Assembly (NCBI RefSeq): GCF_001499855.1
Contig: NZ_LQIK01000009.1
Span: 43,595-107,594 of the forward strand
DNA: 64,000 nucleotides
From: Mycobacterium sp. GA-0227b
GTDB taxonomy: Bacteria > Actinomycetota > Actinomycetes > Mycobacteriales > Mycobacteriaceae
Reading direction: 5' to 3'
Part shown: piece by piece, positions 5,541-24,702 of the stretch
Position numbering within the stretch: the first letter of the stretch is position 1
Layout: each line of letters starts with the position of its first letter
Program-made: the position numbers and the translations under genes
The notes under the pieces: generated by a model
Databases searched by the model: none
Told to the model about the DNA's origin: nothing
The model's input: only the letters and a program-made list of their open reading frames with translations

Positions 5541-5607
5541 GTCACACTGATCAACTTTCTGCGGGCAAAGTGCGAGAACGCGTCGGCAAAACGTCGATAG
5601 TTGTGAC
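5541..5607 (-). repeat. 67-bp imperfect palindrome, right inverted copy (element E2)
   Basis: Read on the minus strand it starts GTCACAACTATCGACG and ends TTGATCAGTGTGAC. Aligned by eye to E1 (4470-4536) it has the same length with about 13 mismatches in 67, and the core GTTCTCGCACTTT is identical. It starts 88 nt after the DUF559 stop codon. Nothing coding was seen in 5454-5684. Confidence 0.85.
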
Positions 5608-5684
5608 TCGCGGAGGGCAAGTTGCACAATTGACAGCTCGGCCGCGCTACACAGAGCGCGCAACACAATTCAAAGATGCAACAA

Positions 5685-6404
5685 CTAAGACGCCCGCCGC
5701 GGTGCGGCCAGGCGTTCACGGCGGAGCCGGTCGACCTCGGGCAGCTCGATCGGCGCCAGCTCGCCCACCACCTGGCTCAGCAGATGGTCGGCCAGCTCCG
5801 GATTGCGGGCCAGACACGGGCCGTGCAGATAGGTGGCGACGACGCTGCCCTGCACCGCGCCGTCGTAGCCGTCGCCGGCCCGGTTGCCCGCACCCTTCTC
5901 GACGCGGGCCAACGGCTGCGCATCACCACCGAGAACCGTTCCGCCGCGGTGGTTCTCGAAACCGGTGAGCCGCTGCGACAAGCCGGCCAACAACGGCTCC
6001 GACACGACCTCGCCGATCGTGCGCTGGTCCTGCGGCGAGGTGGTGACGTCGAGCAGGCCGACGCCGTCGACACGTTCACCCGACGACGTCTCATACCAGT
6101 GCCCGAGCACCTGGATGGCCGCGCAGATCGCCAGCACCGGCGCACCGCGTCCGGCGGCCTGCTGCAGACCCGGATACCGCAGTAGGTGCCTGGTGGCCAG
6201 CCGTTGCGCGTAGTCCTCGGCGCCGCCGAGCGTGTACAGGTCCAGTTCGGCGGGCACCGGGTCGGTCAGCGTGATCTCCACGACCTCGGCGTCGATTCCG
6301 CGCAGCCGCAGGCGTTCTCGCAGTACGACGGCGTTGCCGCCATCACCGTAGGTGCCCATCACGTCGGGCAGCACCAGCCCGATGCGCACCGTCGACTCAG
6401 CCAC
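5685..6404 (-). CDS. gatD: Lipid II isoglutaminyl synthase, glutaminase subunit GatD
   Basis: 239 aa from a GTG start that lies 8 nt inside the end of murT, so the two subunits are translationally coupled. It is a CobB/CobQ-like class I glutamine amidotransferase domain. The nucleophile Cys is in PVLAICAAIQVLGHWY, and the catalytic His in VVATYLHGPCLARNPEL. GatD releases ammonia from glutamine for MurT, which amidates D-Glu of lipid II to D-isoglutamine at the membrane-cytosol face. It was formerly annotated CobQ2 (Rv3713). Confidence 0.92.
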   Translation of the reverse strand: MAESTVRIGLVLPDVMGTYGDGGNAVVLRERLRLRGIDAEVVEITLTDPVPAELDLYTLGGAEDYAQRLATRHLLRYPGLQQAAGRGAPVLAICAAIQVLGHWYETSSGERVDGVGLLDVTTSPQDQRTIGEVVSEPLLAGLSQRLTGFENHRGGTVLGGDAQPLARVEKGAGNRAGDGYDGAVQGSVVATYLHGPCLARNPELADHLLSQVVGELAPIELPEVDRLRRERLAAPRRAS

Positions 6405-7623: not shown

Positions 7624-7707
7624 CCCCGGGATTCTAAGGAGCCGACACGCTGGCGAGCGATTCGGCGAGGTCCCGGCTTTGTCACTGCTGCGTGCCATCC
7701 TGACGAA

Positions 7708-8727
7708 GTGACCCGAACTGGCGCCGGATGTCGCCGGCCGGGCGGCTCCTGGGGCCGGCCGGCGAGCGAGGACGGTGCCGGCTGGGCGGTCGTCGACGTG
7801 GAGACGTCGGGCTTCCGGCCGGGACAGGCACGCATCGTCAGCGTCGCCGCGCTCGCACTCGGCGACGACGGCAACGTCGAACACAGCCTCTACAGCCTGC
7901 TCAACCCGGGCGTCGACCCCGGGCCCACCCATGTGCACGGGCTGACGGCCGCGATGCTGGAGGGCCAGCCGACATTCGCCGACGTCGTCGACCACCTCGT
8001 CGAGCTGCTCGCCGGGCGCACCCTCGTCGCACACAACGTCGGTTTCGACTACTCGTTCCTGGCCGCCGAGGCCGAGCTGGTCGACCGCGAACTGCCCACC
8101 GATACCGTGATGTGCACGGTCGAACTGGCCCGCCGCCTCGACCTCGATGTCGAGAACCTGCGGCTCGAGACACTGGCCGCGCACTGGGGCATCAGCCAGA
8201 TGCGGCCGCACGACGCGCTCGACGACGCGCTGGTGCTCGCGCAGATCCTCAAACCGGCGCTGGTGCGGGCCCGCGAACGCAAGGTGTGGCTGCCGGTGCA
8301 TCCGGTCACGCGGCGACGCTGGCCGAACGGCTTCGTCACGCACGACGAGCTGCGCCCGCTCAAGTCGGTGGCGGCGCGGCTACCGTGCCCGTATCTGAAT
8401 CCGGGCCGCTTCGTCGCGGGGCGGCCGCTCGTGCAGGGCATGCGCGTCGCGTTGTCGGCGGAGGTGAAGCACACGCACGAGGAGCTCATCGAGCGGATCC
8501 TGCATGCCGGACTCGCCTACACCGACGCCGTGGACCCCGAAACCTCGCTGGTGGTCTGCAACGACGCCTGCCCGGCGCAGGGCAAGGGCTACCAGGCCAA
8601 CGAGTCGGGTGTTCCGCTGGTCACCGACGCCGACTTCATGCGCTGTCTCGACGGCGTCGTCGGCGGCACCGGCATCGAGGAGTTCACCGACACCACGCTG
8701 GCCGGCGACCAGTTCGCACTCTTCTGA
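7708..8727 (+). CDS. DnaQ-family 3'-5' exonuclease with C-terminal BRCT-like region
   Basis: 339 aa from the GTG at 7708. The exonuclease domain shows the DEDDh motifs: WAVVDVETSGFRPG (Exo I), LVAHNVGFDYSFLAAE (Exo II) and PHDALDDALVLAQIL (Exo III). The C-terminal part (about residues 230-339) resembles a BRCT-type module (GMRVALSAEVKHTHEELIER and LVVCNDACPAQGKGYQANES). It is the Rv3711c counterpart, annotated as a DNA polymerase III epsilon-like protein. Mycobacterial replicative proofreading is done by the DnaE1 PHP domain, so a repair role is more likely. Divergent from murT-gatD. Confidence 0.88.
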   Translation: MTRTGAGCRRPGGSWGRPASEDGAGWAVVDVETSGFRPGQARIVSVAALALGDDGNVEHSLYSLLNPGVDPGPTHVHGLTAAMLEGQPTFADVVDHLVELLAGRTLVAHNVGFDYSFLAAEAELVDRELPTDTVMCTVELARRLDLDVENLRLETLAAHWGISQMRPHDALDDALVLAQILKPALVRARERKVWLPVHPVTRRRWPNGFVTHDELRPLKSVAARLPCPYLNPGRFVAGRPLVQGMRVALSAEVKHTHEELIERILHAGLAYTDAVDPETSLVVCNDACPAQGKGYQANESGVPLVTDADFMRCLDGVVGGTGIEEFTDTTLAGDQFALF

Positions 8728-8729
8728 TC

Positions 8730-8744
8730 GCCGCCTTCGGCGGC
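8730..8744. terminator. GC-rich hairpin between convergent genes
   Basis: GCCGCC-TTC-GGCGGC immediately after the exonuclease stop codon, followed by AGTGTT. It may serve both the exonuclease gene and the convergent leuA, which ends at 8774. Confidence 0.6.
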
Positions 8745-8773
8745 AGTGTTCTGATCGCCTCAGAGACAGCCTT

Positions 8774-10690
<1,917 letters not shown>

Positions 10691-11347: not shown

Positions 11348-12331
11348 ATGTGCACACGCGTGGTTTACCTCGGAACGAACGACCGCAACGTCACGGGTCG
11401 CTCGATGGACTGGAAATCGGAGATCGGCACGAATCTGTGGGCGCTGCCGCGCGGTGTCCACCGGACCGGCCAGGGCGGCGCGAACTCCGCCGAGTGGACT
11501 TCGAAGTACGGCAGCGTTGTCGCCAGCGGCTACGACATCAGCACCACCGACGGGGTGAACGAGGCCGGCCTCGCTGTGAACCTGTTGTGGCTGGCCGAAT
11601 CGCAGTATCCGGCGGCGACAGCCGACGGCCCCGCGGTCTCGCTCGCGCTGTGGGGCCAGTACGTGCTCGACAACTTCGCGACGGTTTCCGAGGCGGTGCA
11701 GGCGCTGAGCGCAACCCCGCTGCGGGTCGCCACCGCGGAGGTGCCGGGCGAGGAGCGGATGGCGACGCTGCACCTGGCGATGTCCGACGCCGGCGGGGAC
11801 AGCGCGATCGTCGAGTACATCGACGGTCAGCAGGTGATTCACCACGGCAGGCAGTACCGGGTGATGACCAACTCGCCGACCTTCGACAAGCAGCTCGCGA
11901 TCAACGAGTACTGGAAGGAGATCGGCGGCACGGTGATGCTGCCGGGCACCAACCGCGCCGCCGACCGGTTCGTGCGGGCGTCGTTCTACATCGACGCGGT
12001 CCCCAAGACCGACGACCCGCTGCTGGCGGCCGCCGCAGTCCTCAGCGTGGTGCGCAACGCGTCCACCCCGTACGGCATCTCGACATCGGACGAGCCCAAC
12101 ATCTCGACCACCCGCTGGCGGACCGTCGTCGATCACAAGGCGCTGCGCTACTTCTTCGAGTCGGCGCTCTCGCCCAACACCTTCTGGGTGGAGCTGCGCA
12201 ACATCGACTTCTCGCCTGGCGCCCCGACTCTGCGGCTCAACCTGGGCGAGGGGGAGCGCACGATCTACGCCGGCGACGCCAGCTCCGAGTTCGAGCAGGC
12301 CGATCCGTTCCCGTTTCTCGGGGTGCCCTGA
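11348..12331 (+). CDS. Choloylglycine-hydrolase-family linear amide C-N hydrolase
   Basis: 327 aa. It is an Ntn-hydrolase of the penicillin V acylase/choloylglycine hydrolase family. The start MCTRVVYLGTNDRNVTGRSMDW places Cys2 as the N-terminal nucleophile once Met is removed, with Arg and Asp of the GRSMDW motif following. LWALPRG, GVNEAGLAVNLLWL and the internal beta sheets fit the fold. No signal peptide is seen, so it is probably cytosolic. The natural substrate may be an N-acyl amide such as an N-acyl homoserine lactone, a bile-salt-like amide or a beta-lactam side chain; the sequence does not decide. Confidence 0.85.
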   Translation: MCTRVVYLGTNDRNVTGRSMDWKSEIGTNLWALPRGVHRTGQGGANSAEWTSKYGSVVASGYDISTTDGVNEAGLAVNLLWLAESQYPAATADGPAVSLALWGQYVLDNFATVSEAVQALSATPLRVATAEVPGEERMATLHLAMSDAGGDSAIVEYIDGQQVIHHGRQYRVMTNSPTFDKQLAINEYWKEIGGTVMLPGTNRAADRFVRASFYIDAVPKTDDPLLAAAAVLSVVRNASTPYGISTSDEPNISTTRWRTVVDHKALRYFFESALSPNTFWVELRNIDFSPGAPTLRLNLGEGERTIYAGDASSEFEQADPFPFLGVP

Positions 12332-12545: not shown

Positions 12546-14114
12546 GTGGCGGATGAGGACGATGACCACCTCGCGCACGCGGGTTTTCGTCCGACCAACG
12601 TCTGGTGGAGCGCCGATGGAAAAGCGTCTGACGACGTGAAGCCTGACTCTTTTGCAAGCCCTCAATTTGCGCCCGATGAGGCGCGGGCCCAGGCGCGCCG
12701 GTGGAGATCGGCCTATCACCGGCGGGTTCTTGCCGTCGATGCGTTGACTCTCGCCGCGGTCGTCATATTCGCCGAATGGATCGGAACGCGGCTGGCGCAC
12801 CGCCATTTCGCCGATTTCACCACGGCAACGGCTTTCTCGGTGGGGATCTACATCGGATGGCTGATAGCCCTCGGTTACGCCCGCTCACGGGATATTTCGC
12901 TGGTCGGCCAGCAGGCCGAGGAGTACCGGCGCGTTGCTGCAGCGACCGGGTGGACATTTGCGCTCGCCGCAGCGTTCGAAATCTTTCTCGACATGCCGAT
13001 CTCGCGCATCCAGTTCGGCGTGACTTTCGGACTCGGCTTGGTCGGCCTTTTCCTCACCCGCTACCTACTTCGGGCGGATGTACGCCGACGCAGGAAGAAA
13101 GGCACCTACATCTCGCGTGTCGTCGCGCTGGGCGATCTGGATTCGGCGCGGACATTGTGTGAGTACTTTGCGCGCTCGCCGACGGCCGGCTATCGGGTCG
13201 TGGGGCTCTGCATTCCCGACGCCGGAGACCAGATCGGGCAGAACGTGAGCCTGCCCACCGGCAGTGTCCCCATCCTCGGTTACGACGACGACAGCCTCAT
13301 CGAGTCGGCCGTGCAGTCCGCCGGAGCAGACACCCTCGCGGCCGTCTATTCCGAGCAGCTGGGGCCTGAGACGGTCGAGTATCTAGCTTGGCGTATGCAG
13401 GCGATCAACACCGAACTGATCGTCGTCCCGGCATTGACAGAGGTGGCCGCGCACCGACTCCAATTGCGACCGCTCGAGAATCTGCCGCTGTTCGTCATCG
13501 ACGCGCCGACACACGATGCGCCGTCGATGATCACAAAGCGCATCCTCGATCTTGTGCTGGCCACCGTTGGACTGGTGGTGGCGCTTCCGGTCATCGCACT
13601 GGCGGGGTTGGCCATCAAGCTCGACGACCGGGGACCGGTCTTCTACCGGCAGCAACGGGTGGGCATGGACGGCAAGCCATTCAAGATCATCAAATTGCGC
13701 AGTATGTACGTGGATACCGATAAGACGGCGCAACCAGAGAGTCACCGTCACGGCAGCATTTTTCACAAACGCACTTCCGATTCCTGCGTGACCCGCGTCG
13801 GAAAATTCCTCCGTGCCAGCAGCGTCGACGAGTTGCCGCAGTTGTTCAATGTGCTCGAAGGCTCGATGAGCATAGTCGGGCCCCGACCGCTGGCTGTGGG
13901 AGAAGCAGGGGCCCGTGAGCACTTCATCGAACACCGGTCACACGTCAAGCCGGGAATGACCGGTTTGTGGCAGGTGTCCGGGCGGTCCGATCTGGAAGAC
14001 AAAGACCGCATACGACTCGACGAGTCGTATGCGGGCAACTGGTCGGTTGTCGGGGACCTGTTGATCATCTGGCGCACGGTGGGCGCCGTTCTCAAACGCA
14101 AGGGCGCATACTGA
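12546..14114 (+). CDS. Polyprenyl-phosphate glycosyl-1-phosphate transferase (WcaJ/CpsE type)
   Basis: 522 aa from a GTG. Several N-terminal membrane segments (about residues 58-170) are followed by a CoA-binding-like domain. The C-terminal Bac_transf domain carries KRILDLVLATVGLVVALPVI, VFYRQQRVGMDGKPFKIIKL, SSVDELPQLFNVLEGSMSIV and GLWQVSGRSDLEDKDRI. It transfers a sugar-1-phosphate from a nucleotide sugar to undecaprenyl or decaprenyl phosphate, starting the lipid-linked repeat unit at the inner membrane. It is the first gene of the accessory polysaccharide locus between leuA and ask. galU at the far end supplies UDP-glucose, so glucose-1-P is a plausible but unproven substrate. Confidence 0.9.
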   Translation: MADEDDDHLAHAGFRPTNVWWSADGKASDDVKPDSFASPQFAPDEARAQARRWRSAYHRRVLAVDALTLAAVVIFAEWIGTRLAHRHFADFTTATAFSVGIYIGWLIALGYARSRDISLVGQQAEEYRRVAAATGWTFALAAAFEIFLDMPISRIQFGVTFGLGLVGLFLTRYLLRADVRRRRKKGTYISRVVALGDLDSARTLCEYFARSPTAGYRVVGLCIPDAGDQIGQNVSLPTGSVPILGYDDDSLIESAVQSAGADTLAAVYSEQLGPETVEYLAWRMQAINTELIVVPALTEVAAHRLQLRPLENLPLFVIDAPTHDAPSMITKRILDLVLATVGLVVALPVIALAGLAIKLDDRGPVFYRQQRVGMDGKPFKIIKLRSMYVDTDKTAQPESHRHGSIFHKRTSDSCVTRVGKFLRASSVDELPQLFNVLEGSMSIVGPRPLAVGEAGAREHFIEHRSHVKPGMTGLWQVSGRSDLEDKDRIRLDESYAGNWSVVGDLLIIWRTVGAVLKRKGAY

Positions 14115-14124: not shown

Positions 14125-15072
14125 CTACCAGCCCATCGCGCTGCGCACTTCTCCCGGCCAGGATGCCGGATCCAGACCGTGAGTTCGCAGCATTCCCAAG
14201 GCAATTCGCTCCATGCCGAAACCTACGCAGGCGCTGTGTGCAACGCCACCATCGGCGGTGCGCAGGGCGAACGTTTCACCGAAGTGGTCTCGGTGGCAAT
14301 TGGCCGACACCACGGCGGTGCCCTCGTGCAGGTCGCCGTAGAGCCGCACCACTAGTTCAGTCTTCAGATTCTCGTCACGCTGGTTGGCGGCCAACAACTT
14401 GCCGACCCGGCCGAAGAACGGGTCGTTGGCCGCTACGGGGCGGGCGTCCAAGCCGAGTTCGGTCAGTACCGCCATGCCGTGGTCCACCCAGCTGTCACGG
14501 TGTTCCTGTGCCTGATCGGGTGTTCCGACCAACACGTACTCGTGCATCCGGAACGCCTGCATGCGCGCCGGGTCAATGGCCGGCTCGTGCCGGAAGCAGT
14601 ACCCATAGATGTCCATCAGCACACCGCCGTCGGGCAGGCTCGACGGCAGCGTGGCATAGCTTGGATGGCAGGCCGCCGAAACCAGCATGGTCCCAGCGGA
14701 ACTCAGATGCCCGTCCCACGGCAGGCCGGCATCACGATCAGCCAACAGCGCGCGGTGCTCGGCGTTTCCGCCGGTGAATGTCGAGATCGCACCGGTCAGA
14801 TCCGGGAAAGACGCGATGTAATCGGTCTTCTCGAATTGCTCACGCGGGAATACCGGTGGAAACCGCAGCACCTTCGCGCGATCCCGATGGACCTCGGCGC
14901 CCTTGCCTTCCACCACGTGGTCGACACCATCGACGATGCTCTCGAAAACCGCTCCACGGCCGTACAGTCCGTCGATACCCATCGGCACCAACAAGCCCGC
15001 CGCAATCAGTTCATCGCGGAACTGGTGGCGGGCCGACTCGAGTTGCGCATCAAGGTCACGAGCTTCGGTCAT
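14125..15072 (-). CDS. Amino acid:[carrier protein] ligase (aminoacyl-tRNA-synthetase homologue)
   Basis: 315 aa, far shorter than a seryl-tRNA synthetase and lacking its tRNA-binding arm. It matches the class II aaRS-like aa:CP ligases described in Bradyrhizobium and Agrobacterium. Visible elements are VSAACHPSYATLPS (zinc Cys region), GYCFRHEPAIDPARMQAFRM (motif 2, RHE), VSANCHRDHFGETF and the motif 3-like SACVGFGMERIALGML. The enzyme activates a small amino acid (Gly or Ala in characterised cases) with ATP and loads it on the phosphopantetheine of a small carrier protein. The carrier gene lies divergently 168 bp away, as expected. The amino acid used here is unknown. Confidence 0.88.
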   Translation of the reverse strand: MTEARDLDAQLESARHQFRDELIAAGLLVPMGIDGLYGRGAVFESIVDGVDHVVEGKGAEVHRDRAKVLRFPPVFPREQFEKTDYIASFPDLTGAISTFTGGNAEHRALLADRDAGLPWDGHLSSAGTMLVSAACHPSYATLPSSLPDGGVLMDIYGYCFRHEPAIDPARMQAFRMHEYVLVGTPDQAQEHRDSWVDHGMAVLTELGLDARPVAANDPFFGRVGKLLAANQRDENLKTELVVRLYGDLHEGTAVVSANCHRDHFGETFALRTADGGVAHSACVGFGMERIALGMLRTHGLDPASWPGEVRSAMGW

Positions 15073-15240
15073 CTGCCAAATCCTATCGCCGGCCGGTGGA
15101 GGCCGGACGTGATCCGCGGCCCACCGAATCGTGGTTCCTTGGCTCGTCCCTCACAGCTGTTCGGGGCCGGCACGGAACTGGGTGACGACGCACAGCAGCA
15201 GACCTCGGTCGTGCTCCGCTCGCGAATTATGCTGATCAGC

Positions 15241-15477
15241 ATGCGGGAAAGAATTCAGAAGGCATTGGCCGACCACGGAAGAATGTCGGTCGACCCGAAC
15301 GGCGTCGACGCCGACGCCGACCTCTATGAGCTCGGGCTCACCTCGCATGCCTCGGTCAACGTCATGCTTGCCCTCGAGGACGAGTTCGACATCGAATTCC
15401 CCGACGAGGCGATGAAGAAATCCACTTTTGCTTCGATCAACAACATCGAAGCCGCCGTCACGAGGCTCATCAAGTAG
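15241..15477 (+). CDS. Small acyl/aminoacyl carrier protein
   Basis: 78 aa from the ATG at 15241; an ATG at 15229 is also in frame. It is a four-helix carrier protein with LYELGLTSHASVNVMLALED, where Ser35 (GLTS) aligns with the phosphopantetheine serine of the usual DSL motif, followed by EFDIEFPDEAMKKSTFASIN. The GLTS form is typical of carriers paired with aa:CP ligases. It is divergent from the ligase gene and 42 nt upstream of the AcpS-like gene, giving a complete loading module inside the polysaccharide locus. Confidence 0.9.
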   Translation: MRERIQKALADHGRMSVDPNGVDADADLYELGLTSHASVNVMLALEDEFDIEFPDEAMKKSTFASINNIEAAVTRLIK

Positions 15478-15519
15478 CACCCACCAGGGCGCGCCGCGCT
15501 ACTTCGAACAGGAAGACCC

Positions 15520-15924
15520 ATGAACCCGCCGGAGGTGCAGCTACCGGGTCACCTGATCCGCGTGGGGTGCGATGTGGTGGCCCTCGAAGAGATCGAGAAT
15601 TCGTTGTCCTCGTTCGGAGACCGGTTTCTGGCCAAGATCTACACCGCTGCCGAGGTCGCCACTTGTGCCGGTTCGAACCGGCTGGCCCGCCTTGCCGCCC
15701 GGTTCGCCGCCAAGGAGGCCGCCATGAAGGCATTCGCACGGCCGGACGCCGCGCTTTCGCCGCTCGAAATGGAGGTCGTCCTTTCGGGCGATCTGCCGAC
15801 GTTGCGGCTCAGCGGTTCGGCCGCCCAGCTGGCCGTGGCGCAGCGGTGGCTACAGGTCTCGATGTCGATCACCCATGCAGACTGTCACGCGGCAGCCGTG
15901 GTGGTAGCGGTCTGCGCCGAGTAG
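15520..15924 (+). CDS. AcpS-type 4'-phosphopantetheinyl transferase
   Basis: 134 aa. It shows the AcpS motifs: VGCDVVALEEIENSL with the Mg-binding Asp, RFAAKEAAMKAFA with the WxxKEA-like helix, and VSMSITHADCHAAAVVVAV at the C-terminus. It would transfer phosphopantetheine from CoA to the Ser of the neighbouring carrier protein. Mycobacterial housekeeping AcpS lies elsewhere, near the FAS-I gene, so this is a dedicated second copy. It is co-directional with the carrier gene. Confidence 0.88.
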   Translation: MNPPEVQLPGHLIRVGCDVVALEEIENSLSSFGDRFLAKIYTAAEVATCAGSNRLARLAARFAAKEAAMKAFARPDAALSPLEMEVVLSGDLPTLRLSGSAAQLAVAQRWLQVSMSITHADCHAAAVVVAVCAE

Positions 15925-15990
15925 CAGCGGTGCCCGGGCAATGGTCGTACCGTGTATCGAGAGCGACTCGCAAATGCCGACGTCTGATAG

Positions 15991-17754
15991 ATGTGCGCCA
16001 AGATGCAAAGTTTGGACCAATCCGGGGTCTCTTCGGGGGATGACCGGGTGAACGCGGGCATGACGGGGTTATCCGGTGTGCCGACGTGGTTCGGACCCGA
16101 GGAGTCGCGGCTTTTCGGTGTTTTACACGTCCCGGCCGGCGGGGTTGCGCGGGCGGGCGTGGTCATCTGTCCACCGCTCGGTCGTCAGCACCTGGATACC
16201 TACACCGGACTGAAGCTGCTGGCGCAACGATTGTGCGAAACGGGATTTGCAGTGTTGCGCTTCGATTACCCGGGCACCGGGGACTCGATGGGCGCCCAAT
16301 GTCGGGACAGTGCCGTGGATGACTACGTGGACGGCATTCGGACGGCAGTGCGGTATCTGCAGGCTTGCGGCGCGCAGAGTGTGTCGCTGGTCGGCCTGCG
16401 GGTCGGTGCGTTGCTCGCCGCGACAGCGGCGCCCTCGATAACGAGTCTCGGCGGCCTGGTCATGTGGGACCCCGTCACCAATGGTCGCCGATACCTGCGC
16501 GAACAACAGGCGCTCTATCGGGTGACCGTCGGCGGCGAGGAGGGTTCCGAATTACCGCCCGAGCCGGGCGCGGTCCCGCTTCTCGGTATCACCCTCTCCT
16601 CCACAGCTGCCACCGCCCTCGGCGGACTGAAGATGCCGGCGGATGTCGGATCGACTTCGGTGCTTGTGTTGAGCCGGCCGGAACACACTGGTGACCGCTT
16701 GCTCGCCGACCTGCCCGCATCGGGCGACTGCATGGTCCAGCAAATTGCCGGGCAACCCGAGTTCGTGGAACCACCCAGCATTGTGGTCAGGATTCCGGTG
16801 GAAACCCTGGCGATGATCGAGAAATGGCTCGACGCGACGCTGACATCGGAGACGTTCGCATTCGAGCCGGAGTTCGCCGGTATTGCCGTGGCGGACGAGT
16901 TGCCCGACGGCCGCAAGATCATCGAGTCGATCACCGAACTCGGCCCTAACCGGCTGTTCGCCATCCGGACCGCGTTCAGTGACGCTACTGAGGGTGGGCC
17001 GACGGTGTTATGCCACAACACCGCGTGTGAACATCGGGTCGGCTCGGGGCGAATCTGGCCGGACACGGCCCGGGAACTGGCTGCGCTGGGCGTGAGCGTG
17101 GTCCGCTACGACCGTCGGGGGGTAGGCGACACCGGTGTCGCAACCGGCGAGTTCCCATGGATGCATTCACCAGATGCCCAGGCTGATGTGACCGATGCGA
17201 TTGCGGCCCTGGCAGTGCCGGAAGACCGTCTGGTGATGGCCGGAATCTGTTCGGGTGCTTGGAATTGCGCGTATGGGGCGTTGCAGAGCGGCGCCAAACT
17301 GGTGGTTCTGCTGAACATTCTGCTGTATTCGTTGCGGCGCGCCGACGGCGGATCGGAGCGGATCGCGCAGGTGACTGACGCTGTTGTCGGCGATCACGAC
17401 CCCCAGGAGCGGCGGCTATGGGGAATGGTCAAGCAGGGACTGCGAAATTGGCTGCCATATCAGGGTTGGTTGCTCCTCGGTCGCCTTGGTTACACCCAGG
17501 CTCCGGAGGTGCTGCTCAAGGCGCTCGGCAAGAGCGGAGTGCCGACTGAGTTGGTTTTGTCACCATCGGATTTCGAGTGGTACGTAGAGCATCGCGGCCT
17601 GATCGGGGCCAAGCGGCTGGCACGTCGTGGTTGGGCGCCGAAGCTGACTTTGCCGCCCGCCGGTGATCATGCGGTGCTACACCGCGGATTGCAGAACTTC
17701 ATGCGTGAGTATCTGCTCGCCGCGGCGCGCCGCGAATTCGCCGACCAGCTCTGA
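15991..17754 (+). CDS. Tandem alpha/beta-hydrolase fusion, exosortase-locus-type
   Basis: 587 aa; the true start could be an internal codon up to about residue 24. Two alpha/beta-hydrolase domains lie in tandem, about residues 30-280 and 300-587. Domain 1 has FAVLRFDYPGTGDSMG and an elbow GLRVGA, with Arg at the usual Ser nucleophile position. Domain 2 has SVVRYDRRGVGDTGVATGEF and the elbow GICSGA, with Cys at the nucleophile position. Both elbow types recall the paired hydrolases of proteobacterial exosortase-associated polysaccharide loci, here fused. It follows acpS by 66 nt and probably acts on the carrier-bound group, as a thioesterase or acyl transferase; this is inference. Confidence 0.75.
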   Translation: MCAKMQSLDQSGVSSGDDRVNAGMTGLSGVPTWFGPEESRLFGVLHVPAGGVARAGVVICPPLGRQHLDTYTGLKLLAQRLCETGFAVLRFDYPGTGDSMGAQCRDSAVDDYVDGIRTAVRYLQACGAQSVSLVGLRVGALLAATAAPSITSLGGLVMWDPVTNGRRYLREQQALYRVTVGGEEGSELPPEPGAVPLLGITLSSTAATALGGLKMPADVGSTSVLVLSRPEHTGDRLLADLPASGDCMVQQIAGQPEFVEPPSIVVRIPVETLAMIEKWLDATLTSETFAFEPEFAGIAVADELPDGRKIIESITELGPNRLFAIRTAFSDATEGGPTVLCHNTACEHRVGSGRIWPDTARELAALGVSVVRYDRRGVGDTGVATGEFPWMHSPDAQADVTDAIAALAVPEDRLVMAGICSGAWNCAYGALQSGAKLVVLLNILLYSLRRADGGSERIAQVTDAVVGDHDPQERRLWGMVKQGLRNWLPYQGWLLLGRLGYTQAPEVLLKALGKSGVPTELVLSPSDFEWYVEHRGLIGAKRLARRGWAPKLTLPPAGDHAVLHRGLQNFMREYLLAAARREFADQL

Positions 17755-17770: not shown

Positions 17771-18979
17771 TCAGACCGTTGCGAACAGAGAACGCAGCGC
17801 GGCAGTGGTTGCGGTGATGTCGAATTCCTGCTCGACCAGGTCGCGTCCCGTGCGGGCGTAGTCGTCGAGTGCGGGGCCCGACGATATCAATTGTTCCAGC
17901 GTGTCGCGCAGGCTCTGCGCGTCGGCCGGGATGGCCAGGAGGCCGGTCTTCTCGGGTATGACCAATTCCGGGACGCCCGAGAGACTTGTTGACACGGTCG
18001 GTATTCCGCTCGCCAGCGCCTCCATGAGGGCGACCGGCAGACCCTCCATCTGGCCGTCGGCGGCTACGATGCTCGGCAGTACGAACAGATCGGCCTCGGC
18101 CAATGCCTGCTTGACCGTTGTCTCGGACTGCCCGCCATGGAATCTGACCCGTGATCCGAGCCCGAGTTCGGTTGCCAGCTTGTGCAATTCGTCGTTCAGC
18201 GGTCCGTTGCCGATGAGGTCCAGTTCGGTCCGGTCCAGGCCGGGTCCGCCCAGCGACAACGCCCGCAGCAGCACTTCGTGTCCCTTGTACTCCTGCAGCG
18301 AGGCCACACATAGCGCCCGGATCGGACCGCTGTCCGGGATCCTCCTGGGACGGAACGGATATGCCGCCGAGTCGATTCCACAGTGGATGACGTGCACCGG
18401 TGTCGAGGTATAGCGCTCCAGCAGTCGACGGTTGTACTCCGACACCGTGACGATGAAATCGGCACCGTCGAGTTTGCGGCCCAGCATCGACTGATCGACG
18501 TAGAGGTCGTGCGCATGCACGGTGACGCTGTAGGTGACACCGGCCAACCGCGAGCAGATCCATGCGGCGAGGGCGGGATATGTGGCGTAGTGGGCGTGGA
18601 TGTGCCGGGTGGGACTCGAGGAGTGCAGATCGCGGGCGTGCGCGGTGGCGATCGGCACCGTGATCAGGGCACGGATCAGCAGCCCTGGCCGCGCGGCGTA
18701 ACCGCGCACCACCGTGGCCAGAATCGACAGCGTGGCCAGCGGGTGCCGCACCAGCGCCCACCCCAATCCGGCCACACAGGCACCGACACCGGGCCGTACC
18801 AACTTGTCCATCCACCGCCTGGCGATGTCGTGGACCTGTGGGTCCGGCGATGGAAACAGCGACCGCAGTCCAATTTCACGTCCGTCGGTGGTAGACAGCG
18901 CATCGAGTTCCCGGACGATGAAGGTCTCCGAGATAACCGGGAACCGGGATACCAGATAGTCGATCTGTTTGCCGCTCAA
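17771..18979 (-). CDS. GT4-family glycosyltransferase
   Basis: 402 aa from a TTG at 18979 that overlaps the upstream stop as TTGA; an in-frame ATG at 19030 would give 419 aa. It has a GT-B fold: N-terminal VSRFPVISETFIVREL is a common GT4 opening. The C-terminal UDP/GDP-sugar site reads DGQMEGLPVALMEALASGIP with the E-x7-E motif, then GVPELVIPEKTGLL. It probably adds one sugar to the lipid-linked intermediate in the cytosol. Last gene of the minus-strand run 17771-26300, whose genes mostly overlap by 4 nt. Donor unknown. Confidence 0.88.
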   Translation of the reverse strand: MSGKQIDYLVSRFPVISETFIVRELDALSTTDGREIGLRSLFPSPDPQVHDIARRWMDKLVRPGVGACVAGLGWALVRHPLATLSILATVVRGYAARPGLLIRALITVPIATAHARDLHSSSPTRHIHAHYATYPALAAWICSRLAGVTYSVTVHAHDLYVDQSMLGRKLDGADFIVTVSEYNRRLLERYTSTPVHVIHCGIDSAAYPFRPRRIPDSGPIRALCVASLQEYKGHEVLLRALSLGGPGLDRTELDLIGNGPLNDELHKLATELGLGSRVRFHGGQSETTVKQALAEADLFVLPSIVAADGQMEGLPVALMEALASGIPTVSTSLSGVPELVIPEKTGLLAIPADAQSLRDTLEQLISSGPALDDYARTGRDLVEQEFDITATTAALRSLFATV

Positions 18980-20118
18980 CGTCCACGCTCGATCAGTTCT
19001 CGGTAGAGGCCCTGCAGCCGGTGGGCCCACGAGGTGGCCGAGAACTCGGCGCGGGCGCGCTCAATAGCCGGCTTTCCCAGCGACTTTCGCAGCCCTGGGT
19101 CGTCCAGCAACCGCGTCACGGTGGCGGCCAGTGCGGCCGGATCGTCGGGTTCGAACAGCAGCCCCGTGGAGCCGTCGACGATGATGTCCGGAATGCCGCC
19201 GATCCGCGATGCAGCGATGGCCTTGCCCGATGCCGACGCCTCGATCAGCACCGTGGGCAGATTCTCACCGTAGGTCGACGGCAGCAGTACGACGTCGGCA
19301 GCCCGGTAGACCTGCGGCATGTCCGAGCGAACGCCGGCGAAGATCACAGAGTCGGTAACGCCTACTTCGCCGACCAGCCTCCGGAGTTCGGCTTCGTCTG
19401 GGCCGCCACCGACCAGAGACAGGATGGCGTCCGGATGCGTCTGCAATATCTGCGGCCACGCCGCGATCGCCACCGGGATGCCCTTGAAATCGCGGAAGGC
19501 GGCCGGTAGCACGACCAAAGGTCCAGGGCCACCGCCGAGTTCGCGGCGGACCGTCGGATCCGGTTCGCCGGGGTGGAAATTGCTGACATCGATTCCGTTG
19601 TGCAGCACATCCCAGTTGGCCGGGATCCGGCCTCGGCGATGCACCTGGGCCCACGACACCCGGCTCGCCTCAGAGACGAACAGCACCCGATCACCCCGGG
19701 TCGCCGCTTCGGTCGCGATCTGCTCGCGCCAATGCTCGCGCCCGGGCCAACGCTCCGTCACATGGTGGAACGTGCAGACCACCGGGCGGCCGGTCAGCTT
19801 CGCCGCCGGTACCGCGAACGTTGCCGACATCTCCAAGTGAGTGTGCACCAGATCGTAACCACCACTGCGAATCTCGCGGGCCAATCGGAAAACGCCGGTG
19901 ACGTCGAGAAGTCGGCGGATTCCGAGTGAGCGGGGATGCACGCCGGCTTCAGACAGTATCTTCATGGTCTTCTCGGAATTGACCGATGCGTCGTCCAGGC
20001 CGACGAAGTCCATCTGGACATCGGTGTTGCGCATGGCGAGGGCCATCGGTGCCAGCAGGGTTTCGGCACCGCCCATACGGAACCCGTCGATGAGGGTCAT
20101 CACCCGAATCGGCGTCAT
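18976..20118 (-). CDS. GT4-family glycosyltransferase
   Basis: 380 aa from the ATG at 20118, which overlaps the upstream stop as ATGA; this coupling decides the start over an in-frame codon at 20142. The N-terminus RVMTLIDGFRMGGAETLLAP is the classic GT4 acceptor-domain opening. The C-terminal donor site is YGENLPTVLIEASASGKAIA followed by GIPDIIVDGSTGLLF. Cytosolic or membrane-associated. It is part of the same tightly overlapped gene string as the flippase and polymerase-like genes. Confidence 0.9.
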   Translation of the reverse strand: MTPIRVMTLIDGFRMGGAETLLAPMALAMRNTDVQMDFVGLDDASVNSEKTMKILSEAGVHPRSLGIRRLLDVTGVFRLAREIRSGGYDLVHTHLEMSATFAVPAAKLTGRPVVCTFHHVTERWPGREHWREQIATEAATRGDRVLFVSEASRVSWAQVHRRGRIPANWDVLHNGIDVSNFHPGEPDPTVRRELGGGPGPLVVLPAAFRDFKGIPVAIAAWPQILQTHPDAILSLVGGGPDEAELRRLVGEVGVTDSVIFAGVRSDMPQVYRAADVVLLPSTYGENLPTVLIEASASGKAIAASRIGGIPDIIVDGSTGLLFEPDDPAALAATVTRLLDDPGLRKSLGKPAIERARAEFSATSWAHRLQGLYRELIERGR

Positions 20119-21068
20119 TTGAGAACCCGCAGCTTGTTCCACGGGATCTTCGTCATCCCGTCATAGTCCCATTGAATACCGGCCGCACTGTAGGTTCGCC
20201 CGACGGTTCCGGGGGCGGCTGTGTTGTCCCGTTCGAAGCTGATGCTCAGTGGTGCTCCGCTGACATCGACGATGTAGGCGCCGTACTTCTGGAGAGCCTC
20301 GGCCACTGTGTGTTGCGCCGGGGAAAGTCCCAGGCTGTTGATGTCCACGCTGGGGTCCAGTTGTATGCGCGCCCCTTCGGGAATGCAGTCGGGGCTGGTC
20401 GATTGGCCGTCGGTCTTGAGCGCCGGCGGCCGGAACACCTTGGCGCACACGTTGTAGCTTTGCATGGCGAGCGCATGCGGAATCGAACCCTGAGCGATCT
20501 CGGCTACCCGCACCACTCCGGCCAATCGGGATGCACCCGAGCCTGTGCTCGCACCGCCCCAGCCCGAGCCGTCGAGACTGTTCACAGCGCCGAATTCGGT
20601 TGTCCAGGAACCGTTTGCCTTCTTGGCGCGCCAGAACTCGTAGATCGTTCGGCTGTCCGGGTCGATCACCACCATCGCGCCGTCGGAGCCGTCCTGTGGC
20701 CGTGCGTCGTCAGGGATCGGTACTCGAAGGCCATCAAACGGGCAGGGGCCCCATTCGGTGATGAGGCACGGGACGGAATAGCGGGGGGTGTGCGCGTTCG
20801 CGGTGTAGATCGGGATTCCGAATTCAACAGTCGCCGCGGACGCGCTGTTGTCCCAGTGCACCGCCCGGATCATCGCCGCGCTGTTCGGGTCGACCTCGGC
20901 GTCGGTCGGGATCGGTGTGCGAAATGGGCTGTCTTCGGCAAACGGTTGGGATTGGTCGGCCCGCACCGGCGTATCTGCGACAAGCCTCGCGATGATGAGG
21001 AGCGCGCCGACGGCCGCAGCGACAAGCGCAGCGATGGCGACCTGCCACCGTGTTTGCTTGCTCATCAT
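20115..21068 (-). CDS. Membrane-anchored secreted protein of unknown function
   Basis: 317 aa. One N-terminal anchor (WQVAIAALVAAAVGALLIIA) precedes an extracytoplasmic beta-rich domain. Four Cys occur (VPCLITEWGPCPFDG, YNVCAKVF, PDCIPEG), enough for two disulfides. The pattern DGAMVVIDPDSRTIYEFWRA and the C-terminal AEALQKYGAYIVDVSGAPL recall secreted carbohydrate-active or carbohydrate-binding beta-sandwich proteins of actinomycetes, but I cannot name the family. It lies between two glycosyltransferase genes with 3-4 nt junctions, so a role in assembly, trimming or surface retention of the polysaccharide is likely by context only. Confidence 0.7.
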   Translation of the reverse strand: MMSKQTRWQVAIAALVAAAVGALLIIARLVADTPVRADQSQPFAEDSPFRTPIPTDAEVDPNSAAMIRAVHWDNSASAATVEFGIPIYTANAHTPRYSVPCLITEWGPCPFDGLRVPIPDDARPQDGSDGAMVVIDPDSRTIYEFWRAKKANGSWTTEFGAVNSLDGSGWGGASTGSGASRLAGVVRVAEIAQGSIPHALAMQSYNVCAKVFRPPALKTDGQSTSPDCIPEGARIQLDPSVDINSLGLSPAQHTVAEALQKYGAYIVDVSGAPLSISFERDNTAAPGTVGRTYSAAGIQWDYDGMTKIPWNKLRVLK

Positions 21069-21071: not shown

Positions 21072-22265
21072 TTACATCTCCGGACTGACATGTTTGGTGG
21101 CCGCCGTCACCGCATCGCTGATCGAGGCCGCGGCGACGGACCAGGAGCGCTGTACCGCAGCCTGCCCCGCCTCGCCGAGCTTCGCCGCCAACTGCGGATC
21201 CCGCAACAGTTGAAGCATTGCGGTGGCGAGTGCCCCGGCGTCGTTCGGCGGGACCAGCAGACCGGTGACACCGTCCTCGATCGCGGCCGGTAGGTCGCCG
21301 ACGGTGGTGCCGATGACCGGACGGCCGAAGGTGTATGCCAGGTGCGCTACGCCGCTCGCGCTGGCCCGGATATACGGTGTGACGACGACCCGGGCGGATT
21401 CGACGAGCTCGGATACCTCCTCCATTGCGCAGTAGCCCGGCCGCGCGTCCACGCCGTTGGCCGCGGCCCGGGCCAGCAGTTCCGGAGCGTCCACGTCGGC
21501 ACTGACCGCCCCCGCGAGGATCAGGCGTGCGGTCGGCATTTCGGCTCTGACCAACCCGAACGCATCAATCAGGACGTCAATACCCTTGTAGGCGGTCCAG
21601 GTGCCGAAGAACAGGGCGATCGGCTCGGTCTGGGCCACCGGTGCCGGTGGACGGCCGCGCTGCACGGCACCGGCGTCGCCATGCGGAATGACCACGACCT
21701 CGCCGTTGGGTTGCCAGTGGTCGAGGACGATCTGCCGGGTCCGCGGCCCCAATACGAATGCGACGTCCATCTGGCGCCATGCTGCGGCGAAAGAGGCCTG
21801 CAGCAACCGCCCCTCTTTCGGCGTGCTGGTGTCCTTGGCGTCGGATCGCGGAAGCGGCTCGTGGGCGATGATGCCGAACACCGTGCGCGGCAACAACTTG
21901 CAGATCATCACCACGAACCACGGCTCGAAGGTGAAGCGCCACTGCGAGAACAGCACCGCGCGCGGCGGTCGACGGCGCAGCTGATAGGCCAGCACCAGCC
22001 AGGCGAGCACCAGCTGGCCGGCCCGCCGGCCCCGGCGCACCAGGTACCTCAGGTAGCCGTGGTCACCGGTAGCGTGGGGGTGCCAGGTCGGCAGCACGGA
22101 GCGGATCTCGAATCCGGCTTCTGCGGAAGAGATTTCGGGATCGGGGCCGGTCCACAGCTCGACTTCGTCGCCGTGGTCAGCCATAGCGTTGCCGAGTTGG
22201 GCAGCGAACTGGAAGAGCCCGCCTGACGGCGAGAACTCGACGAGGACCGTGCGGTTGTCCGTCAC
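21072..22265 (-). CDS. GT4-family glycosyltransferase
   Basis: 397 aa from a GTG that overlaps the upstream stop as GTGA. The donor-site region reads ESARVVVTPYIRASASGVAH and GRPVIGTTVGDLPAAIEDGV followed by GLLVPPNDAGALATAM, which is typical of GT4 enzymes, although the first Glu of E-x7-E is replaced here (RASASG). The N-terminus VLVEFSPSGGLFQFAAQLGN is an acceptor-domain opening. It is one of four GT4-type genes in the locus. Sugar donor unknown. Confidence 0.85.
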   Translation of the reverse strand: MTDNRTVLVEFSPSGGLFQFAAQLGNAMADHGDEVELWTGPDPEISSAEAGFEIRSVLPTWHPHATGDHGYLRYLVRRGRRAGQLVLAWLVLAYQLRRRPPRAVLFSQWRFTFEPWFVVMICKLLPRTVFGIIAHEPLPRSDAKDTSTPKEGRLLQASFAAAWRQMDVAFVLGPRTRQIVLDHWQPNGEVVVIPHGDAGAVQRGRPPAPVAQTEPIALFFGTWTAYKGIDVLIDAFGLVRAEMPTARLILAGAVSADVDAPELLARAAANGVDARPGYCAMEEVSELVESARVVVTPYIRASASGVAHLAYTFGRPVIGTTVGDLPAAIEDGVTGLLVPPNDAGALATAMLQLLRDPQLAAKLGEAGQAAVQRSWSVAAASISDAVTAATKHVSPEM

Positions 22266-24118
22266 GCCGCGACCCTGACACGCTCAGGTGGCACCACGGT
22301 CGCGCGCGGCCAGAGTCGGTTCAGCAAGCGGCCCAATAGCAATCGCGCCAACACCAACGCGGCCAGCCCCCAGCCCGCGGCATAGGCCAGCGCCGACTTC
22401 GACCGCACGGAGACGCGTTCCACGTGCACGTCGGTGATGGTTTCGGCGGTGTATTGCATCGGGCCGATGTGGTCGTTTATCCGCGTGCGTGCCACGGCCA
22501 ACGCGTCGGCCAGGCGTCGTTCGGCGCCGTCGGCATCCTGCGCGGTGACTGAGAACGTAGCGATACCGCGGATCGGGTCGGAGTGGATCTCCGCCGGGGC
22601 GTCCGTGTTGTACATGACTTCGATCAGGGTAGGCAGGAATGCCTCGCGGGCTCGGACATTCATCGCGTACGAGGCCCAGCCGTCGAGCGGGCCGACTGGC
22701 ATCATGATGACCTTCTGGCTGGCCCGCACCGCCGGGGTGCTCGCGATGAGCATGCTGCTGCCGGCTACGGCGGCGCCGACGACGACCGCCATCACCCACA
22801 GCGCGGCGGTGCGGAGCATATTGCGGATGACTGCCGGTTGCACGGTTTCGGCCGGGCCGAGGGCGCACGCCAGTGCCAGCACGATGGCGAACGACCGGAA
22901 GTAGGCCAGGTGAAGGAAGATGCTTGCCACCGACCAGGTGACGATGCCGGTGAGCGTTGCCGCGGCCAGCGCCCGATCGACCGATCCGGGGTCCGCAGCG
23001 ATTCGCAGCGCCACGATTGTGAAGATGCCGCCGACCATGATCAGCCAGGTGAACAGCCCGGTCACCCCCGATTCGGCGAGGAACTGGGCGTAGAGGTTGT
23101 GCGGGGCGACGAGCCCTTCGTTGACGGCCGTCCTCACCCGGTCGGTGTAGTAGGGCACCTCATGGCCGAAGGCCCCCGGGCCGAATCCAAAGGCGGGCCG
23201 TTCCTGGAACATTCGCCAGGCCATCTCCTGAGACGCCGCGCGGCCGAGGACCGAGGGATCGATGTCATAGCTCCGCTGAGCACCGGACCCACCAAGCACA
23301 TCGTTGAGAAGGGCGATCATTCGGTCGCCGATGCCGGGGATCGCGAACGTCAACAGCATGACCGGTGGTATCCAGATCAGCTTCTTCGGCTTGCCGGAAG
23401 CGATGAACCACAGCGCGACAGCTGCCCCGGCCGTCAACAGCGTGCCACGGGATTGGGTGAGATAGATCCCGATCAGCATGAGGATGCTGCAGAGCAGCCA
23501 TGCCACCGACTGCGGCTGCCTGCCGGCGCGACGACTGCGCTGTGCCAGCGCCCAGCCCATGGGCAGACCCAATACCAGCTGACGGCCCCAGAAGTTCGAG
23601 TCACCATACGGGCCGGCATACCGCTGGGTGGTGATCAGCTCCCCCTGGGCTTCTGAGATCAGGGCCAACCCGCCGAACGTCGCATCCCCACCGGTCAGAT
23701 AACTCGCGATCGACAGCAGCGACAGCACCGCCAGCGTTACGGCCACCGCCATCGCCACCGCCCAGGGCTTCCCGGTGACCTGGGTCAGCATCAGGATGAC
23801 GAACAGGAACGCGAGATCGACCGCCGTCCGCCAGAGCTCGGCGGTTGACGCGGCGGTGTCGACGCTGCCGACCAGTGCGATCACCTGGCCTGCGACATAC
23901 ACCGCGATCAGGACGACGCCGATGACCGTCCAGCGATTGAGGCGAGCCCGGGCCTGTGGGTCCCGCAGCGCGACGATCAGCGCGAGAACACCAAGCGCCA
24001 CACTGCCTTTGAAGACGGGAGCCGAGGTGTATTGAGTGGCCACCTCGGACAGGTTGGCCACTTCCGCGACCACCATGCCGACGAGGACGCCGACGATCCA
24101 TGGGCTCGAGCCGGACAC
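22262..24118 (-). CDS. O-antigen ligase/Wzy-like protein with C-terminal Wzz-like domain
   Basis: 618 aa from a GTG. About ten membrane segments fill residues 5-450, with the Wzy_C/WaaL signature region PAFGFGPGAFGHEVPYYTDR and VAPHNLYAQFLAESGVTGLF (conserved His-Asn). After a further hydrophobic segment near residue 470 comes an extracytoplasmic stretch of about 120 residues and a final membrane helix (AYAAGWGLAALVLARLLLG). That TM-domain-TM arrangement resembles a chain-length regulator. The protein would polymerise or ligate lipid-linked units on the outer face of the membrane. A polymerase-regulator fusion is my reading. Confidence 0.8.
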   Translation of the reverse strand: MSGSSPWIVGVLVGMVVAEVANLSEVATQYTSAPVFKGSVALGVLALIVALRDPQARARLNRWTVIGVVLIAVYVAGQVIALVGSVDTAASTAELWRTAVDLAFLFVILMLTQVTGKPWAVAMAVAVTLAVLSLLSIASYLTGGDATFGGLALISEAQGELITTQRYAGPYGDSNFWGRQLVLGLPMGWALAQRSRRAGRQPQSVAWLLCSILMLIGIYLTQSRGTLLTAGAAVALWFIASGKPKKLIWIPPVMLLTFAIPGIGDRMIALLNDVLGGSGAQRSYDIDPSVLGRAASQEMAWRMFQERPAFGFGPGAFGHEVPYYTDRVRTAVNEGLVAPHNLYAQFLAESGVTGLFTWLIMVGGIFTIVALRIAADPGSVDRALAAATLTGIVTWSVASIFLHLAYFRSFAIVLALACALGPAETVQPAVIRNMLRTAALWVMAVVVGAAVAGSSMLIASTPAVRASQKVIMMPVGPLDGWASYAMNVRAREAFLPTLIEVMYNTDAPAEIHSDPIRGIATFSVTAQDADGAERRLADALAVARTRINDHIGPMQYTAETITDVHVERVSVRSKSALAYAAGWGLAALVLARLLLGRLLNRLWPRATVVPPERVRVAA

Positions 24119-24120
24119 CG

Positions 24121-24702
24121 CTATGTGCGGCTTCGGCGTGTGCGCAGCCAGGCCACGCCGATTCCAGCGGCAGCGCCGAGCATCAGACCGCCCAGCGCGC
24201 CGGCCAAAACCAGTTGGCTGCGTGGTGTCGACATCGCAGACGCATCACTGGGCGGCGAAACCACCCGGACCTGAAACGGAGCCGAGACCGCGGTGACTTC
24301 GGGTGTGGCCTTGGCGAGGAGGTCAGAAGCCGCGGCTTGGGCGGCTTGAGCCGATGGTGCATCGGCGGTGATCGACACCATTGTGGTGTCCGGCAACGCT
24401 CCGGCCGTCAACGTAAGGCTCGATTCCTCGATCCCCGCGGCCGACGCCGCGCTGGCCGTCCAGCGCGGGTCGGAGTAGACCGCCGCCGCGGTGCGCGAAA
24501 CCTGCCCCTGGGTGAGGACCTCCCAGTAGGCCGATGCATCGGCGGTGGTCAGGTCGGGCCCAGGGACCAAGGCCACCTGTGCGGTCGCGCGATATGTCGT
24601 CGATACGGGCATCAACAGACCGGCGATGCCACCGATGACGAGGCCAATAGCCGCGCAAATTGCGACGATTGGGTTCAGCCAGACGCGCTGCGGGTGACTC
24701 AT
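24121..24702 (-). CDS. Wzz/YveK-like chain-length determinant
   Basis: 193 aa. Two membrane helices near the ends (NPIVAICAAIGLVIGGIAGL and LVLAGALGGLMLGAAAGIGV) enclose an extracytoplasmic domain that begins TYRATAQVALVPG, the standard opening of the Wzz domain. No tyrosine kinase domain or Walker motif follows, so it is the short, kinase-less form. The start ATG overlaps the flippase stop as ATGA, and its own stop is 2 nt before the polymerase-like gene. It probably sets polymer length with that protein. Confidence 0.85.
   Translation of the reverse strand: MSHPQRVWLNPIVAICAAIGLVIGGIAGLLMPVSTTYRATAQVALVPGPDLTTADASAYWEVLTQGQVSRTAAAVYSDPRWTASAASAAGIEESSLTLTAGALPDTTMVSITADAPSAQAAQAAASDLLAKATPEVTAVSAPFQVRVVSPPSDASAMSTPRSQLVLAGALGGLMLGAAAGIGVAWLRTRRSRT

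Follow-up and report, generated by a model that had tools for sequence, protein, structure and literature searches.

This study concerns a 64,000-nucleotide stretch of Mycobacterium sp. GA-0227b (contig NZ_LQIK01000009.1), hereafter the window, and a module of four genes that it carries inside a polysaccharide locus. Open reading frame and profile scans found all four genes intact within positions 14125-17754. They encode an amino acid:carrier protein (aa:CP) ligase that resembles class II aminoacyl-tRNA synthetases (aaRS), a small carrier protein, an AcpS-type phosphopantetheinyl transferase and a protein with two alpha/beta-hydrolase-fold halves, which we call HYD (Table 1). The first-pass annotation of this DNA had placed such a set, including a 78-aa carrier with a GLTS serine, between a phosphoglycosyltransferase and glycosyltransferases, and each of these genes was recovered at its place with a profile match. 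The phosphoglycosyltransferase is likely the starter of the polysaccharide unit.

The module does not appear to have been assembled by chance, since G065 and G107, two near relatives, share the gene order of the window and since the ratios of nonsynonymous to synonymous substitution rates (dN/dS) of the four module genes resemble those of their neighbours (in two comparisons, 0.055-0.185 for the module as against 0.035-0.200 for five flanking genes). The product of the gene without a family match that lies among the glycosyltransferase genes has counterparts in the corresponding clusters of G065 (85% identity), G107 (90%) and a further relative, G035 (68%). The choloylglycine-hydrolase-type Ntn protein (CBAH) occupies an equivalent position in G065 and G107, and could be a further acyl enzyme of the locus.

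Table 1. Features of the window (positions count from its first nucleotide; the four module genes come first).
Feature	Positions	Strand	Family match or remark
aa:CP ligase, 315 aa, class II aaRS-like	14125-15072	-	NF005479
Carrier protein, 78 aa	15241-15477	+	NF005480, PF00550
AcpS-type phosphopantetheinyl transferase	15520-15924	+	TIGR00556, PF01648
HYD, two-half alpha/beta-hydrolase-fold protein	15991-17754	+	TIGR03101-like and TIGR03100-like, below both cut-offs
Arg137 codon, nucleophile place of the HYD N-half	16399-16401	+	
Cys420 codon, nucleophile motif of the HYD C-half	17248-17250	+	
Polyprenyl-phosphate phosphoglycosyltransferase	12546-14114	+	TIGR03025 362.9 bits (cut-off 295.55), PF02397
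GT4 glycosyltransferase	17771-19030	-	PF00534
GT4 glycosyltransferase	18976-20142	-	PF00534
Protein without family match (Pfam, NCBIfam)	20115-21068	-	kept in relatives' clusters
GT4 glycosyltransferase	21072-22265	-	PF13692
Wzy-type polymerase/ligase (Wzy_C)	22262-24118	-	PF04932 72.8 bits
Wzx-type flippase	24699-26300	-	PF13440 249.6 bits
Glycosyltransferase	26460-27719	+	PF13692
CBAH, choloylglycine-hydrolase-type Ntn protein	11348-12331		adjoins phosphoglycosyltransferase
2-isopropylmalate synthase gene	8774-10615		cluster bound
Aspartate kinase gene	32448-33713		cluster bound
740-aa protein	28877-31099		no Pfam match; between imelysin-like and nucleotidyltransferase genes; also conserved in G065 and G107
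EgtB-type ergothioneine gene	39962-41857		TIGR03440 above cut-off
MurT-like protein (lipid II isoglutaminyl synthase family)	6397-8343		far under curated cut-off

The ligase belongs to the family NF005479, against which it scored 430.6 bits over residues 8-313 (curated cut-off 357). Its top matches in the PDB are the entries of Bradyrhizobium Bll0957 (4h2w, E 3e-73; 3mey, E 9e-71), and the Bll0957 chain aligns to residues 23-314 of the window ligase. Residues C135, E178 and C282 align with this chain at a Cys, a Glu and a Cys that we take to be its zinc ligands, and were invariant in nine of nine aligned ligases. The dN/dS of the ligase was 0.14 and 0.17 in the two comparisons. The neighbouring carrier (96.4 bits against NF005480, cut-off 72; 35 bits against PF00550) is the vicinal carrier that goes with this ligase family, and its phosphopantetheine site reads GLTS with the serine at S35, a residue kept in all 48 aligned relatives. 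The AcpS-type transferase scored 60.2 bits against TIGR00556 (cut-off 45.35) and 46.3 bits against PF01648 (cut-off 25); PF01648 matches three times in the genome, this protein included. The transferase likely activates the carrier.

In its AlphaFold2 model (pLDDT 90.4; 90.7 for the C-half alone), HYD forms two alpha/beta-hydrolase domains, and the first-pass annotation had spoken of a double hydrolase. This label is misleading. The C-half has the nucleophile motif GICSG, and its Cys420 is a cysteine in all 61 homologs of a first alignment and in 233 of 233 in a larger one (2 of its 235 homologs are gapped there). The triad Cys-Asp-His is completed in the larger alignment by Asp or Glu in 231 and by His in 231 of the 235 homologs, the remainder being gaps. 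At the nucleophile place of the N-half the window protein has Arg137, and the 235 homologs have R (121), G (102), A (5), S (4), C (2) or a gap (1). To judge from these alignments, the N-half has lost its nucleophile and only the C-half keeps a catalytic triad, with cysteine in place of serine. We had also considered HYD as a serine hydrolase or a pair of them, and dropped this candidate in view of the Cys in the C-half and the Arg or other residue in the N-half. Fold searches returned esterases, lipases and thioesterases with no single close relative; of the solved structures that resemble the C-half, many are esterases, and the thioesterases DcsB and curacin TE are present too. We predict that HYD is a cysteine acyltransferase.

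HYD is related to a pair of hydrolases from exosortase-A (XrtA/PEP-CTERM) loci, scoring as a homolog and not as a member against both TIGR03101 (hydrolase 2; 90.9 bits, cut-off 202.75) and TIGR03100 (hydrolase 1; 77.8 bits, cut-off 168.45). Its C420 and H560 align with the Cys and His of 15 of 15 hydrolase-1 proteins (14 above the TIGR03100 cut-off and L138), and hydrolase-2 proteins have Arg at the nucleophile place of the N-half in all 14 cases aligned. Because the exosortase-A proteins carry the same Cys, His and Arg marks, HYD is, by homology, a fusion of hydrolase-2 and hydrolase-1 homologs that is a member of neither equivalog. The window also shares with the exosortase-A loci the order carrier, hydrolase 2, hydrolase 1, whereas the two hydrolases are separate proteins there and fused in HYD. 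A carrier-profile match (E 1e-8 to 1e-3, some of them weak) lies upstream of hydrolase 2 in 13 of the 14 exosortase-A loci above the TIGR03100 cut-off, and in the fourteenth the contig is cut where the carrier would lie. A text search of the PEP-CTERM paper PMC1569441 for mentions of hydrolases and carriers yielded nothing.

The exosortase-A loci differ from ours in the type of loading enzyme. An AMP-binding-type match was present in the flanks of 8 of the 14 exosortase-A loci, as compared to 5 of 80 loci with the aaRS-like ligase (described below), in a search with a home-made query that is a weaker test than a curated family. NCBIfam, applied to ten genes near hydrolase pairs, gave no exosortase-type ligase. 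A similar exchange is seen among mycobacteria, four of which (G017, G051, G058 and G147, the last on a short contig) carry HYD without this ligase. The three with full flanks, G017, G058 and G051, have a carrier (66-70% identical to that of the window) and an AcpS beside HYD. They also have an AMP-binding-type match no more than 10 kb away, which Pfam confirmed in two of them; the match in G058 is an adenylation-carrier-thioesterase protein that directly precedes HYD. On its short contig, G147 shows an end piece of AcpS beside HYD. Pooling mycobacteria and exosortase-A loci gave AMP-binding matches in 11 of 17 against 5 of 80 ligase loci (p 4e-7, which is overstated as kinship is ignored). This loader swap fits a common chassis, composed of carrier and hydrolase pair, that is served by two kinds of loader.

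Within the genus, NF005479 matched in 9 of 148 genomes and in 6 of 148 above the cut-off; the weak matches in G023, G064 and G146 (L015-L017) were excluded from the six ligase-bearing genomes. HYD lies on the same contig as the ligase in all six, compared to an occurrence of HYD in 4 of the 142 other genomes (Fisher p 1.6e-8, not corrected for kinship and therefore overstated, because the genomes of the genus are related). Besides the near relatives G065 and G107, the genome G035 has the same polysaccharide genes at 65-72% identity, with a phosphoglycosyltransferase only 36% alike. Its module is larger and comprises ligase, an acyl-CoA dehydrogenase-type protein (ACAD), carrier, DUF1839, a GH2-like protein and AcpS; its HYD stands at a distance of about 11 kb. 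G098 carries the larger module among different neighbours and G132 the small one. Genome-wide, neither DUF1839 (E <= 0.001) nor the cassette-type ACAD (E <= 1e-15) was found in the window genome (G000), G065, G107 or G132, and the module gaps of the same four held no trace of ACAD, DUF1839 or GH2 above threshold. Without ACAD and DUF1839, the window genome falls outside the full ligase-ACAD-DUF1839-GH2 cassette. The window module is best read, from gene content, as a reduced form of this widespread larger cassette, because the larger module occurs in relatives and because a Mycobacterium metagenome-assembled genome (MAG; L044) has an intact ligase and carrier beside a C-terminal ACAD remnant and an N-terminal DUF1839 remnant.

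The cassette extends far beyond mycobacteria. We compared 80 related loci, the best 80 of at least 584 from one scan of named genomes, a selection that leans to the window's own type; locus profiles were built from these 80 and counted within 10-kb flanks. Their sources include mycobacteria, Rhodococcus, Williamsia, Curtobacterium, Azospirillum, Thiomonas, planctomycetes, Myxococcales and Dictyobacter. The ligase (80 loci) was accompanied by carrier in 78, ACAD in 72, HYD in 58, DUF1839 in 51, GH2 in 48, AcpS in 41 and phosphoglycosyltransferase (PGT) in 15. HYD is thus the commonest partner of the ligase after carrier and ACAD. In 35 of the 58 loci no more than about 125 bases separate the two, and in all 58 no more than 8.4 kb; in one more locus (L070), additional to these, HYD lies just beyond the flank. 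Two loci have more than one HYD: L210 (G633) shows ACAD, ligase, DUF1839, GH2 and HYD in a row with a second, separate HYD about 6 kb on, and in an Acidimicrobiales MAG (L077:9743-13507) two HYD genes on opposite strands stand beside one cassette. One R. leguminosarum plasmid cassette has no HYD in view. Small carrier-like proteins of another type lie behind the weak NF005479 matches of L035 (2283-2513) and L038 (2310-2561), which perhaps represent a second ligase-carrier subfamily.

Among the genomes of the phylum, DUF1839 occurred in 2 of 396, and both of these have the ligase too, in one case with a score under the family cut-off. Of 29 genomes without DUF1839 in the flank, nine have a match elsewhere in the genome, including the L044 remnant. 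In the order of a Rhizobium MAG, the ligase was above the cut-off in 26 of 150 genomes, 18 of them with carrier, ACAD and DUF1839 in a short flank and eight with a Bll0957-like ligase (61-96% identity) that has ACAD but no DUF1839 there. Passages of one paper describe DUF1839 as a papain-like cysteine family whose context suggests acyl-CoA-dependent processing of cell-wall glycans (PMC10318531). A table passage of another gives, for a phaR mutant of Bradyrhizobium diazoefficiens, a fold change of 3.0 for bll0957 and likewise for the acyl-CoA dehydrogenase gene bll0958 (PMC10888616). ACAD, DUF1839 and GH2 are customary partners in the cassette but are absent from the window, so that other bacteria may modify the amino acid between loading and use, or may transfer it with a second cysteine enzyme.

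Two observations tie the cassette to glycan assembly. First, a glycosyltransferase (GT), PGT or Wzx match was found within 10 kb in 39 of the 80 loci but in only 2 of 31 control stretches (p 1.8e-5). The profiles behind these counts took their seeds from the window and G098 and were then extended with cases and controls alike, which may bias the comparison towards the cases. Without matches under 60 bits the count was 32 of 80 (p 4e-4), as seven loci have only matches of 41-57 bits. The controls were 40 stretches, reduced to 31 from 22 genomes after nine of less than 5 kb were dropped; all control genomes are among the 29 lacking DUF1839 in the flank, and the controls are mostly actinobacterial while the cases are not. 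Second, two proteins consist of a Wzx-type flippase with HYD joined to its C-terminal end, one from Williamsia herbipolensis (L049, 1141 aa) and one from the Rhizobium order (L248, 1108 aa). Among the protein matches listed, such fusions make up 57 clusters of at least 1050 aa, namely 7 (five of them named Williamsia) and 50 out of 108 (the named ones mostly Rhizobium). In Rhizobium sp. NLR16a (L251), for example, the order is carrier, ACAD, ligase, DUF1839, GH2, GT4, Wzx-HYD fusion and GT4. The same cassette (4413-9131) comes after efp, epmA and a lysine-2,3-aminomutase-like gene, so that two aaRS-derived protein-modifying enzymes are near neighbours.

A further case is a plasmid of Tsukamurella tyrosinosolvens with the order PGT, AcpS, GT, carrier, ligase, GT, GT, flippase-type protein, GT and HYD, the last annotated merely as hypothetical. 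This locus gave no ACAD, DUF1839 or GH2 match, and that of Tsukamurella sp. TY48 (L070) is like it. By its gene content, the T. tyrosinosolvens locus is a second small module inside a polysaccharide locus.

On balance, we lean slightly towards a reading in which the window module loads glycine or alanine on the carrier and passes it via the HYD cysteine to a polysaccharide unit that is still lipid-linked and not yet exported. AcpS would produce the holo-carrier by modifying S35, and the ligase, as suggested by its family, would adenylate a small amino acid (Gly or Ala) and load it on the phosphopantetheine. Cys420 of HYD would then take over the aminoacyl group as a thioester and hand it on to the glycan at the inner face of the membrane, near Wzx, where a hydroxyl or an amino group would accept it, while the N-half without a nucleophile may hold the carrier or the glycan. 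Wzx and Wzy, as their families imply, would export and polymerise the decorated unit. That the amino acid decorates the glycan or its lipid carrier had been proposed by the first-pass annotation. The tie to glycan assembly was supported by the co-occurrence of ligase and HYD in all six ligase-bearing mycobacteria, by the enrichment of polysaccharide genes near the cassette and by the Wzx-HYD fusions; the loci with no polysaccharide match in their flanks do not bear it out.

Several observations weigh against this reading. Forty-one of the 80 cassettes have no GT, PGT or Wzx match in their flanks (48 of 80 at >=60 bits), for instance those of Curtobacterium, Azospirillum and planctomycetes, and the survey that the first-pass annotation had called for, of whether the module stands mostly apart from polysaccharide genes, was thus split nearly in half. 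Seventeen loci have HYD together with neither a GT match of >=60 bits nor GH2. Moreover, three of the eight Bll0957-like loci, 94-96% identical to Bll0957 and thus of the type that was studied, all carry ACAD, carrier and ligase and show no HYD, DUF1839 or GH2 match in 20 kb. Of the eight loci without ACAD, L070, L072, L079 and L112, which have a polysaccharide match and either uncut flanks or HYD in view, do have HYD, and L047 is cut by its contig; the ligase-carrier loci L044, L081 and L089 have no polysaccharide match and show no HYD. Regarding the enzyme itself, HYD scores under the cut-offs of both TIGR03100 and TIGR03101, its Asp527 and His560 were kept in just 52 and 58 of 61 homologs, respectively, in the first alignment, and a cysteine alpha/beta-hydrolase could hydrolyse in place of transferring, two activities that the fold searches do not separate.

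The last point leads to the alternative that survives best, which we nevertheless regard as rather unlikely: the module would make a small soluble metabolite derived from an amino acid, HYD would be its off-loading thioesterase, and the polysaccharide neighbours would be incidental. This would accommodate the half or so of the cassettes that have no polysaccharide gene in their flanks, the flavoprotein-type ACAD of the full cassette, which would act on the loaded amino acid, and the similarity of the C-half to DcsB and curacin TE. It is harder to reconcile with fusions of HYD to Wzx in two lineages or with the GH2-like partner in 48 of 80 loci, whose two Glu residues are kept in 43 of 43 and 42 of 43 aligned proteins. 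Furthermore, the window form has no ACAD, yet its ligase and HYD are under purifying selection.

HYD and the carrier could also serve the polysaccharide with another enzyme as the transferase, for example CBAH or some acyltransferase, so that HYD would edit or remove groups. Such a division of labour seems improbable to us. CBAH is kept beside the phosphoglycosyltransferase in G065 and G107, but the stretches searched around the module in G035, G098 and G132 gave no CBAH match; likewise, the papain-like DUF1839 (passages of PMC10318531) offers a second cysteine enzyme in 51 of 80 loci but is missing from the window genome, and HYD is outnumbered as a partner of the ligase only by carrier and ACAD. 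Quite improbable, too, is a decaying and non-working remnant of the larger cassette. The genome has no cassette-type ACAD or DUF1839 that our searches could find, and a related MAG has remnants of both; still, the reading frames are intact, the active-site residues are conserved, and the module is not decaying to judge by the dN/dS of its four genes. That ligase and carrier feed a nonribosomal peptide synthetase of the genome in trans, their location being due to chance, is very improbable despite 62 phosphopantetheine-site matches in the genome, many of them inside very long frames, because the order is kept in G065 and G107, the same polysaccharide genes occur with the module in G035, and no such synthetase was among the window proteins scanned with Pfam and NCBIfam.

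Loading an amino acid on a carrier for transfer to a glycan has a well-known precedent in the Dlt system. In the D-alanylation of teichoic acids, an ATP-dependent ligase loads the amino acid on a small carrier, from which it reaches the glycan polymer without tRNA; the ligase DltA is of the ANL type, and the membrane acyltransferase involves DltB and DltD. The window differs in both respects, as its loader is class II aaRS-like and not DltA-like, and as its candidate transferase is HYD, with a cysteine in an alpha/beta-hydrolase fold, instead of a membrane acyltransferase. General family scans of the locus proteins revealed no DltB or DltD, a result that covers the locus and not the rest of the genome. 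A tRNA-free route to an aminoacylated glycan, which the first-pass annotation had inferred, is therefore not new as an idea, but this enzyme set for it would be.

Compared to the known members of its own family, the window ligase is conventional: Bll0957 and its relatives likewise score above the NF005479 cut-off, have the zinc-ligand positions and a vicinal carrier. The surroundings differ, with ACAD and carrier in the loci nearest to Bll0957, and AcpS and HYD but no ACAD, inside a polysaccharide locus, in the window. The ligase/ACAD/DUF1839/GH2 cassette of Azospirillum, Rhizobium and others has ligase, carrier and often HYD in common with the window, which is without ACAD, DUF1839 and GH2. 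Passages of PMC9437257 describe Gly, Ala and Ser ligases in the aa:CP ligase family, with a biological role given there as unknown. Among the open-licence papers listed by our searches, whose scope leaves out most subscription papers, we found none that connects this family with polysaccharide genes.

More tentatively, and with somewhat more doubt than belief, we suggest that carrier and hydrolase-2/1 pair might form a general bacterial chassis for glycan acylation, on which an aaRS-like ligase would load amino acids and an ANL ligase other acyl groups. The pair would act as a cysteine acyltransferase on lipid-linked glycans at the flippase, in two lineages as one protein with Wzx. The window would then hold the minimal aminoacyl version of this chassis, a second, Dlt-independent and tRNA-free route, and might answer what aa:CP ligases are for.

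If the reading of the window that we favour is true, it would provide the first role for the aa:CP ligase family. The gene order, the invariant cysteine and the Wzx fusions make the purpose of these ligases directly testable. Moreover, a function for hydrolases 1 and 2 of the exosortase-A loci follows from the same reasoning: they would form an acyl-transfer pair fed by the carrier and would not be serine hydrolases.

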